The notes under the pieces: model-generated
Databases searched by the model: none
What the model was told of the DNA's origin: nothing
What the model saw: only the letters and a program-made list of their open reading frames with translations
Source: a bacterium
GTDB lineage: Bacteria; Vulcanimicrobiota; Vulcanimicrobiia; Vulcanimicrobiales; Vulcanimicrobiaceae
NCBI GenBank assembly: GCA_021832345.1
Contig: JAKBKY010000003.1
Coordinates: 124,001 to 188,000, forward strand
Length of the DNA: 64,000 nucleotides
Direction: 5' to 3'
Program-made: the position numbers and the translations under genes
Shown here: piece by piece, positions 55,013 to 57,761 of the stretch
Numbering within the stretch: position 1 is the stretch's first letter
Layout of the letters: every line of letters begins with the position of its first letter

Positions 55013-56551
55013 CTACCGGAGATATGCGGAATGTAAGATTAGACCATCACTTCGTCTAGGTTGGCTGATTTTACTTTGGTGATCGCCGTAAGCTTCGGCG
55101 ATCGCCGTGCGGAAGCGCTTCCCAAATGCACTGCAAAAGTTGGAGAACATCGTACCGCTGCTTAACTCAGCAAGCACCGCGCAACCGCCACCGCAATGTA
55201 GCGCGTATCGGCATTGGCGACATGTCGCATTCGAAACCACAGATCTTGATCGCCAAGACTCACCAAAGCCATTGATTGTTGCTGTTCCGTCCTCGTTGAC
55301 AGTTCCGATTCTGAGATTTCGGTCGCCAGTCCGATCCCAACATGCATAGATGTCGCCGAAGGCATCGAAAAGGTACATGCTGACGTGCGCGCCGCAAAAT
55401 GCCGTCCTCGCTTCTATCGGACCCTGACTCTTGAACACTGCTCGCACGCGATCCCGTAGACTGCCATCTACGCGAGCGAATACGCGCGTTTTTGGTTCAC
55501 GTTCATGCAGCTTCCTTAGCATCTCGCTTAGTTCCCAGTAATTGAAAAAATCAGGGCGGGTACCCGCGTTCTTCAGTCCGGAGTAATCTTGGATCGGCGC
55601 AAGGTAGACGTGGAAGTTTGGATCGTCCGCCCAGCCTTTACTGATGAACATGTCTGCCAATTCAATTAGGGAGTCGAAACTGTTGCGATCGACGTTAACC
55701 CGGATCTGAAGATTAGCCCCTTTATGCAAAGCGAGATAAACGTTCTGCGAAATGTCCGAGAACGATCCTGTTCGGTCTGGATACACCCTGCGCTGGTCGT
55801 GGGTCGCCTCGGGGCCATCTATGGTAATCTGTAGTTTGGAAAGATTCTCAGGCCCCAGGAGGTCTTCATAGGCCTCCAATTCTGTGCCATTTGTAATTGC
55901 GCTGAAGCTTGCCGAGCATTGCCTCTGCTGCGAGCGCATGATGTATTCTACGATGGGACGGGACGATGCGAGCAGTGGCTCTCCACCGAAGAACGTAAAC
56001 TGGCGCTGCAGCGGACCAGTAGCATTGTACGTATGGTATTCCGGCTCAATAAAAGGGAAGGCCGCCATAATGCGATCTGCCATGTCCCGACTCATCGTAC
56101 GGAGCAGTCCATGAAAGCGCGGATCCGTACGCATGTGGTCTTGAAAGCAGTAGTGGCAGCGCAAGTTACAGTCGTACGTCGGCATTATGACGAAATGCGG
56201 CGCAGCGCGACGTCGCGTTTCATGCAGCCGACTGACGATGGACGTAAAGAACGTTACTTCGTCGTCGCGTGGCTTCTCCGTGAGATACCCCCGCTTGACC
56301 AGCGTTGCAAGCGTTGAGTTCGAAGGCACCCAGTTCGAATCAGCTCTAATTTCTTCAGGTCCCCAGTCACCATATAGGGGTTTCGAGACCGGAACCGTCT
56401 CTCGGCTTCGCAGATACGCAGCGACCCGGCGGCTAACGACATCGTACGTACCGGTGTATCCGTGAAGCAACAACCACCGATTCGGATTATCGGGAAGATC
56501 CACGTAGATGACGTAGCTACTTGTCCGGAGGCCCTCGTCAACCTCTATCAC
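55013..56551 (-). CDS. Radical-SAM/SPASM peptide maturase
   Basis: A 512-residue enzyme. Residues 1-95 look like a PqqD-type peptide-recognition region (WLLLHGYTGTYDVVSRRVAAYL, then LATLVKRGYLTEK). The radical-SAM cluster motif is CNLRCHYC with Cys128, Cys132 and Cys135. FTFFGGEPLL follows as the SAM-binding GGEP, then TNGTEL and LQITIDGP. The C-terminal SPASM domain has CGAH, ACWD, CRQCRYALHCGGGC and a final FC, enough cysteines for two auxiliary 4Fe-4S clusters. It starts at a GTG, 55 nt after the Cys-rich peptide gene, which is its likely substrate. Known relatives form thioether or C-C crosslinks in peptides. Confidence 0.93.
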   Translation of the reverse strand: MIEVDEGLRTSSYVIYVDLPDNPNRWLLLHGYTGTYDVVSRRVAAYLRSRETVPVSKPLYGDWGPEEIRADSNWVPSNSTLATLVKRGYLTEKPRDDEVTFFTSIVSRLHETRRRAAPHFVIMPTYDCNLRCHYCFQDHMRTDPRFHGLLRTMSRDMADRIMAAFPFIEPEYHTYNATGPLQRQFTFFGGEPLLASSRPIVEYIMRSQQRQCSASFSAITNGTELEAYEDLLGPENLSKLQITIDGPEATHDQRRVYPDRTGSFSDISQNVYLALHKGANLQIRVNVDRNSFDSLIELADMFISKGWADDPNFHVYLAPIQDYSGLKNAGTRPDFFNYWELSEMLRKLHEREPKTRVFARVDGSLRDRVRAVFKSQGPIEARTAFCGAHVSMYLFDAFGDIYACWDRTGDRNLRIGTVNEDGTATINGFGESWRSRSVVSNATCRQCRYALHCGGGCAVLAELSSGTMFSNFCSAFGKRFRTAIAEAYGDHQSKISQPRRSDGLILHSAYLR

Positions 56552-56606
56552 GCCGCATCGTCTTCCCTGGCTAAGCTCCCCACCGCTTTAGCCCTGCAAT
56601 AATGGC

Positions 56607-56819
56607 TTACGATTCATCATTCGAATAGCAACTGTTAGTCTCGCAATTCTGGGTTGCGCAAGACTCTTCAGCGCACCAGTTCGATCCACATGAATGACTT
56701 CCGCAAGTAAGGATACCGCACCAATTATCTGGAGTGCCTCCTTGAGCATCAGCGGACATAGTAGCAAGATCTGCGACATCAAATTGCTCGATATTGAGGC
56801 TTTGAATCTCAGCGTCCAT
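56607..56819 (-). CDS. Putative RiPP precursor with seven CX4 repeats
   Basis: 70 residues from the ATG at 56819 (GGGG 7 nt upstream); a GTG at 56825 would add two. The acidic leader, with LNIEQFDVADLATMSADAQGG, ends in a Gly-Gly that could be a protease site. The core has cysteines at 34, 39, 44, 49, 54, 59 and 64, exactly every five residues. The four residues between them vary (GILT, GSHS, GSNW, AEES, ATQN, ETNS). It ends SNDES. The strict period and adjacency to a radical-SAM/SPASM gene imply a modified peptide, perhaps with thioether rings. I know no named family with this repeat. Confidence 0.85.
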   Translation of the reverse strand: MDAEIQSLNIEQFDVADLATMSADAQGGTPDNWCGILTCGSHSCGSNWCAEESCATQNCETNSCYSNDES

Positions 56820-57666
56820 GTGCACCCCGCACCATTCCCCGTACCATTTCCTGCTCTCGCGCCCATATCACGCTTTCCGGCGTGAGCGGTTTTCGCGCGT
56901 GTTGCTTGAGTTGCCTTACATAGCCAGTCGTAATTCCCATCGCCGCGAAGCTCACCAGATCTTTCGCGGTCATCGATGGGAGTAGCGTCTTTAACTGTGC
57001 CGCATCTCGTCCAGGATTGCCGAAGAGACGGAAGAAGATCATCGTCGAAAGCGTGGCATCGGGAAACGCTAACATTAGAACGCGCACGTCATCGATGCTG
57101 ACATTCGCGAAGGCCAAGGACAGCCGTTGTGCATCCCGGGGTCTAAATCCGAGCGCCGTAAGGCTCTCGAAGTAGCGTTCATCCGGTTTAAAGGAGGCTG
57201 CCCCCGATTCAGTCGGTGTCCCGGGGCGAATGGCAGATCGGAATCCTTGAAGCCGAAACGAGCCGGCATCGCTTGAGAGAATCCCTACGGGCTGACCATT
57301 CGATCCAACCGTGTAGCGGACATCGTGTACCGGAATTGTAATCGCAAATAATGGAAGGGGCTTTGAATTTCGAGTCTTCGATGTAAAGCTACATGAGGCA
57401 GCAGCTCCTCTTCCCGTGGCTACGGCAAACTGGCCGTGCGCCACTGCGAGGCGCTGCTGATTCCCCAGCCACATGTCTAAGATCGAGACACCGGGGCAGC
57501 TTAGCGCCCTCGAAGCAGTCGGGTTCAACGACCATTTCCCACCAGAGTTCTCTAGAGTTTGGGCGCCGGACCGGAGTAACGGGAGCGAACCCCCAACACC
57601 GTACGTCGCAAATAGTGAAGCAACCGAAGCAATAAAGATTCGGCGATCAACGGTGAAATCACTCAT
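56809..57666 (-). CDS. Tat-like exported protein of the radical-SAM peptide cluster, unknown function
   Basis: 285 residues. The N-terminus VDRRIFIASVASLFATYGVGG carries a twin-arginine-like signal. A middle beta-rich domain follows (PLFAITIPVHDVRYTVGSNGQPVGIL). The C-terminal third is helical repeats: YFESLTALGFRPRDAQRLSL, IDDVRVLMLAFPDATLSTMIFFRLFG and MTAKDLVSFAAMGITTGYVRQLKQHA. These resemble the repeated helices found near the ends of some BlaR1-type proteins. It is first in the operon behind a 17-bp-spaced promoter, and its end overlaps the precursor start by 11 nt. It may process, bind or display the peptide; no catalytic motif is visible. Confidence 0.75.
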   Translation of the reverse strand: MSDFTVDRRIFIASVASLFATYGVGGSLPLLRSGAQTLENSGGKWSLNPTASRALSCPGVSILDMWLGNQQRLAVAHGQFAVATGRGAAASCSFTSKTRNSKPLPLFAITIPVHDVRYTVGSNGQPVGILSSDAGSFRLQGFRSAIRPGTPTESGAASFKPDERYFESLTALGFRPRDAQRLSLAFANVSIDDVRVLMLAFPDATLSTMIFFRLFGNPGRDAAQLKTLLPSMTAKDLVSFAAMGITTGYVRQLKQHARKPLTPESVIWAREQEMVRGMVRGAHGR

Positions 57667-57732
57667 CGCCTTACATCAGCCTCAAGCACACTGCATCACA
57701 CCTTTCTGCGCAAATGCGGGCCTTAGGCACAC

Positions 57733-57761
57733 ATACTAGCAACCAGCGTTTGAGAAGTCAA
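57733..57761 (-). promoter_or_regulatory. Promoter of the radical-SAM peptide operon
   Basis: On the minus strand TTGACT and TAGTAT are separated by 17 nt. The -10 is about 67 nt upstream of the first gene's start codon. Confidence 0.75.

Follow-up and report, generated by a model that had tools for sequence, protein, structure and literature searches.

The window analysed here is a 64,000-nucleotide stretch of a contig (JAKBKY010000003.1) from a bacterium of the family Vulcanimicrobiaceae. According to the sequence and its list of open reading frames (ORFs), a minus-strand cassette of three genes lies within 55013-57666 of the window, namely a gene for a putatively exported protein of 285 amino acids (56809..57666), a precursor peptide gene (56607..56819), and a gene with a GTG start for a radical-SAM/SPASM peptide maturase of 512 amino acids (55013..56551). 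The ORF of the exported protein overlaps that of the precursor at its 3' end, and 55 bases separate the precursor from the maturase, in agreement with the preliminary description, which had reported three overlapping or closely spaced genes. The good promoter that these genes were said to share was not confirmed: a single 9/12 match was found versus 2.4 in shuffled sequences, i.e. not above chance. The GC3 values of the three cassette genes are 0.41-0.58, with 0.57 for the gene of the exported protein, whereas those of the four neighbouring genes measured are 0.71-0.79, a contrast suggesting that the cassette has been acquired, and recently. A pstB-like gene flanks the cassette on one side and an outer-membrane porin-like gene on the other.

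The precursor gene encodes 70 residues if translated from the ATG at 56819 and 72 residues if translated from the GTG at 56825. The peptide, MDAEIQSLNIEQFDVADLATMSADAQGG-TPDNW-CGILT-CGSHS-CGSNW-CAEES-CATQN-CETNS-CYSNDES, contains a leader (MDAEIQSLNIEQFDVADLATMSADAQGG; 56736..56819), supported by leader comparison and a hidden Markov model (HMM), with an E-I-x-S-L-N motif common to the relatives described below, and a core repeat (56628..56720) with seven cysteines, one every five residues. Given seven cysteines in the 41-residue tail, the probability of this exact spacing is about 5e-7, and the seven-fold period reported earlier for the 70-residue peptide therefore stands. The same is true of the repeated identical units; all seven (7/7) can be written C-x-x-Z-x, with Z being L, H, N, E, Q, N, and N. 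The 15-base units of the core share only 35% identity at their non-Cys bases; thus, the core is not a tandem repeat of DNA, and its pattern is kept at the protein level. A DNA pattern of seven TGY codons 12 bases apart has one match in the source genome, which is this peptide. In other genomes of the phylum, the inspected matches to the pattern were low-complexity or short-repeat DNA. They were rejected as CX4 homologues because they proved to be short repeats at the DNA level, to lie in a different reading frame, or to run antisense to a HAAPA repeat, and a plasmid search with the precursor as query returned weak unrelated matches only.

The maturase matches the Pfam Radical_SAM model above its cut-off. 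Its radical-SAM cluster motif, CNLRCHYC (CX3CX2C; residues 128-135, 56147..56170), and its SPASM region (55133..55396; cysteines 386, 404, 444, 447, 453, 457, and 473) contain cysteines that are invariant in 30 sequences, and the SPASM Pfam model is matched by 16 of the 30 clade members. The assignment of the locus to a radical-SAM/SPASM RiPP system is supported. The AF2 model of the full maturase (pLDDT 80) has as its nearest solved folds CteB (PDB 5wgg), which forms thioethers, and then TigE. When modelled alone, the N-terminal domain (residues 6-93; 56273..56536) gave a bbb-a-a-a fold (pLDDT 88.7), and its best Foldseek matches were the leader-bound RRE of TbiB1 and TigE (E 0.016-0.08, probability 0.97-0.99), with CteB lower down. 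These models point to an RRE-like (PqqD fold) domain. The PqqD-like N-terminus proposed earlier is thus retained at the level of predicted fold, where the Foldseek E values are all above 0.01, but not at the level of sequence, as no match to Pfam or PDB sequence profiles was obtained for this region. A second, distant radical-SAM gene (31% identity) is present in the source genome (C1:245483-246520).

In total, 29 relatives of the maturase were identified, which align with it along almost its full length at 43-49% identity. They are found in Cyanobacteriota, Acidobacteriota, Myxococcota, one actinobacterial MAG, and the phylum of the window itself (in two genomes belonging to its own bacterial family); the clade therefore spans at least four bacterial phyla, or five should the binning of the actinobacterial MAG be correct. 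The clade is rare: in counts that take in the seed genomes, it is represented in 3 of 149 genomes of its own phylum and in 3 of 297, 2 of 386, and 4 of 195 genomes of the other groups sampled. The window maturase groups weakly with the two enzymes from its own bacterial family (support 95/51) in a tree built without true CefB sequences. The clade has no NCBIfam model of its own, and neither the window enzyme nor a representative relative reaches the cut-off of any named maturase. Judged on sequence, the locus is a real RiPP cassette, and its maturase is an outlier within a clade that lacks a family name. The clusters of the relatives contain varied sets of further genes, including those for M50-like metalloproteases, C39-ABC exporters (in cyanobacteria), a glycosyltransferase, MacB/FtsX permeases, a squalene-cyclase-like protein, and a tryptophan halogenase, all of which are absent from the window cassette. 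The M50-like metalloprotease is encoded downstream of the maturase in 14 loci overall (e.g. L045 8640-12031) and is sometimes accompanied by a squalene-cyclase-like toroid protein; a representative of it weakly matches the daptide intramembrane protease model.

Most of these relatives are adjoined by a short ORF that combines a leader of the form E-I-x-S-L-N...(L-D-V-E-E-L-E-R-R-L-E-L-A) with a short Cys core. When an HMM of this leader was trained without the window, the window precursor ranked first among all window ORFs (E 2.7e-4). The preliminary description had staked its interpretation on homologous precursors beside related maturases, and these are present in many genomes. For a few relatives (the cyanobacterial clusters L014 and L015), the search revealed no E-I-x-S-L-N precursor, and in loci L009 and L042/L048 the leader of the peptide near the maturase is divergent. 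In L014 (5358-9821) and L015 (5276-9857), a peptide that by eye looks like Nif11 is encoded upstream, and the clusters also carry a member of the tryptophan halogenase family (Pfam, tested in L014). A strict CX4 run of at least four cysteines was found near the maturase in none of the first 21 relatives (0/21) or in the precursors read from later ones, which rules out CX4 as a conserved feature of the system. Because the leader and the C-x-x-Z arrangement described below are the conserved features, the strict period appears to be a local elaboration. Many of the tabulated cores hold just one or two cysteines, several of them a single one, so that rings closed inside each unit account for a common chemistry more readily than pairing between cysteines does. 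One relative of the same bacterial family (G126; L025 79-4452 and L035) has two tiny single-Cys precursors, ending in YYCYGDG and YYCYGDN, and its maturase sits between two similar proteins judged by eye to be JmjC/cupin-type oxygenases.

The cores of the relatives share a positional preference. At the third residue after Cys (+3), N, D, H, F, Y, Q, or K occurs in 57 of 73 cases versus an expected 0.30 (z 9.9), and an unbranched beta-CH2 side chain occurs at 66 of 72 cysteines versus an expected 0.41, V/I/T being found at one and G/A/S/P at five of the 72; these residue classes were picked after the relatives had been inspected, and the 72 cysteines come from about 27 loci and are not independent. 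Among the offsets from -3 to +5, the N/D/H/F/Y/Q/K set is enriched at +3 alone, where the signal is also much stronger than anywhere else, and V/I/T are enriched at +2 (32/72). The window peptide, which was held out when the +3 profile was built, carries L, H, N, E, Q, N, and N at +3, i.e. beta-CH2 residues in 7/7 units, and fits the profile of the relatives with p 6e-4; the same profile gives strongly negative scores to its +1, +2, and +4 residues. On our reading, hydrogen is probably abstracted at Z, and the CX4 period arises because each C-x-x-Z is followed by one spacer residue. The Cys-to-(+3) arrangement matches no catalogued family found, and the C-x-x-Z rule appears to be new.

The 285-residue protein was assigned to the cassette by its position only. 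It has a bare RR motif (DRRIFIASVASLF), a putative Tat signal by eye, and it matches no NCBIfam, Pfam, or PHROG family. Nine further genomes from the phylum encode homologues with signal-like N-termini and helical 'LRDHGV' repeats. No radical-SAM gene or Cys peptide was seen in the short loci around them; the protein is therefore not conserved together with the maturase and precursor, its earlier inclusion in the system was not upheld, and it was rejected as a conserved partner. Loci L053-L059 contain related exported proteins of the phylum with repeated 'LRDHGVT..FV' helical units. Cleavage of the leader after Gly-Gly by a C39 peptidase is unsupported in this genome, and C39-type export was rejected, because no C39 domain was found in the source genome, which is 98% complete.

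A system with the same spacing is already catalogued in NCBIfam as the 'Cys-every-fifth RiPP peptide CefA' (NF038108) and its 'maturase CefB' (NF038107). The window cassette resembles this pair in having Cys at every fifth residue, similar core residues, and a radical-SAM/SPASM partner, but both of its products fall below the respective cut-offs: the precursor scores 24.2 bits against CefA (E 2.3e-5, cut-off 30; 23.5 bits in the genome search), in a match that omits the leader, and the maturase scores 111.6 bits against CefB (cut-off 600), i.e. less than one-fifth of the required score, with relatives scoring similarly (126). The CefA score fell from 24.3 to 13.1 bits or to nothing when the core was rearranged with its Cys residues kept, and an Ala-filled CX4 peptide scored 10.5 bits; the likeness to CefA thus exceeds spacing, and pure periodicity was ruled out as its explanation. 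The annotated CefA encoded on Methylomagnum ishizawai plasmid NZ_AP019784 (L064 1870-3909) is a protein of 679 amino acids that includes a lectin-like part and ends in repeats of the CGADA type. It shares the CX4 repeat with the window peptide, and 17 of its 29 units carry D or N at +3, but it adjoins a TIGR04463 maturase that lies far outside the clade in the tree, indicating that CX4 repeats are known but occur with a different enzyme. The Methylomagnum locus also has a radical-SAM C-methyltransferase and a 2OG-Fe(II) oxygenase. A mobilizable Muribaculaceae plasmid carries a radical-SAM maturase (L061 3992-5527) whose best NCBIfam match is CefB (145 bits, far below the cut-off), followed by an unannotated 47-residue peptide ending in CFTCTLCFTCGEFL.

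The best NCBIfam match of the window maturase is PapB (NF047865; 126.7 bits, cut-off 340), and it also falls below the cut-offs for TIGR04463 (115.2 bits, cut-off 525), the geopeptide maturases (106.4 bits, cut-off 400), and the SCIFF maturase (TIGR03974; 75.9 bits, cut-off 425). Its distances from PapB, TIGR04463, and the geopeptide maturases are thus much the same as its distance from CefB. The label 'undescribed' given to the system in the preliminary description therefore needs division: the Cys-every-fifth peptide had been catalogued, but the enzyme is far from the CefB, PapB, SCIFF, and TIGR04463 maturases. PapB, which acts on PapA (freyrasin, CX3D ranthipeptides), joins Cys to Asp or Glu in CX3D and accepts CX0D to CX6D in vitro (PMC9413430). 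The window clade would resemble it in forming several in-line thioethers from Cys to a downstream residue and would differ in using +3 rather than +4 and many acceptors; the +4 residues of the window peptide (T, S, W, S, N, S, and D) do not follow the CX3[DE] pattern. NxxcB joins Cys23 of NxxcA to the C-beta of Asn20 (PMC8326336), and thus shares the three-residue offset; however, its acceptor precedes Cys, whereas that of the window clade would follow it, reversing the ring. The residues at -3 in the window peptide (D, I, S, S, E, T, and T) include no Asn as in NxxC. While the acceptor is Asn for NxxcB and Asp or Glu for PapB, Z in the clade is broader (N, F, Y, D, K, L, R, and H). The SCIFF maturase CteB (PDB 5wgg) provides the nearest solved fold, has RRE and SPASM domains, and performs thioether chemistry, but it acts on a different precursor, and the SCIFF profile cut-off is missed. 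No paper on CefA, NF038107/8, or an IESLN leader with radical SAM was found in the open-access literature, and the consulted section of an article listing new radical-SAM pathways (PMC9062424) names none with this motif.

With slightly better than even confidence, we propose that a leader-guided maturase installs thioethers from Cys to the +3 residue, probably at C-beta, and that in the window peptide seven such substrate units are arranged in tandem. The observations behind this proposal are the gene order, the common leader, the clade, the C-x-x-Z rule, the intact cluster cysteines, and the predicted RRE-like fold. The N-terminal RRE-like domain of the maturase would bind the acidic E-I-x-S-L-N leader, and the radical-SAM cluster would generate a 5'-deoxyadenosyl radical that abstracts a hydrogen atom at the beta-CH2 of residue +3. 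The SPASM auxiliary clusters may hold the Cys thiolate and aid formation of the C-S bond, giving in each unit a small C-x-x-Z thioether ring, probably at C-beta. Repetition along the core could yield a line of as many as seven rings, each separated from the next by a single residue, from which the period of five would follow; any cleavage or export would come later. The very varied nature of Z stands against this proposal, and the +3 preference could come from recognition by the enzyme and not from the bond. A wider rule for the clade, i.e. that Cys is joined to the beta-carbon at +3 regardless of side chain provided that it has an unbranched beta-CH2, with the window peptide as the most regular natural substrate and a ladder of seven rings, is more tentative, and we place it somewhat short of an even chance. 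Such a rule would run in the opposite orientation to NxxC and cover a wider range of acceptors than PapB.

Other explanations were weighed against beta-carbon thioethers. The thioethers from Cys to +3 may instead be made at C-alpha, as in sactipeptides, whose acceptors are varied, as they are here; the enzymes belong to the same superfamily, and fold matches do not tell alpha from beta. We nevertheless regard this as unlikely, since V, I, T, A, and G are almost missing from +3, which is expected for attack on a beta-CH2 and is not required for C-alpha chemistry. It is quite unlikely that the cassette is a plain member of the listed CefA/CefB system with nothing new about it: the profile match of the core, its likeness beyond spacing, and the frequent D or N at +3 in the Methylomagnum protein speak for membership, but the low CefB score of the enzyme, the TIGR04463 neighbour of the annotated CefA, and the skipping by the CefA match of a leader that belongs to the E-I-x-S-L-N group all oppose it.

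The enzyme might also modify the +3 residue or the backbone without the Cys sulfur (by a C-C link, epimerization, or oxidation), the cysteines serving for metal binding or disulfides. Radical-SAM/SPASM chemistry is diverse, the aromatic residues and Asn found at +3 are reminiscent of cyclophane substrates, and some clusters of the relatives hold other modifiers, e.g. the tryptophan halogenase; however, Cys is constant in the cores while Z varies to include K and L, and several relatives have a single core Cys, which makes this explanation distinctly improbable. That the CX4 peptide is an incidental ORF and the enzyme acts elsewhere is hardly credible: although the exact CX4 form was found in no other genome of the phylum, the peptide adjoins the maturase, shares its leader with the adjacent peptides of the relatives, and fits C-x-x-Z.

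If the proposal of leader-guided thioethers from Cys to +3 is true, an enzyme able to couple Cys with Phe, Tyr, Lys, Leu, or Asn over a constant spacing of three residues would be useful for peptide stapling. The period-five peptide would have a seven-fold test built into one experiment. For the clade as a whole, substrate, leader, and ring position would be predictable from sequence, and about 30 unannotated clusters from well-known groups, including those of Nostoc, Microcystis, Prochloron, and Polyangium, would become readable in the same way.
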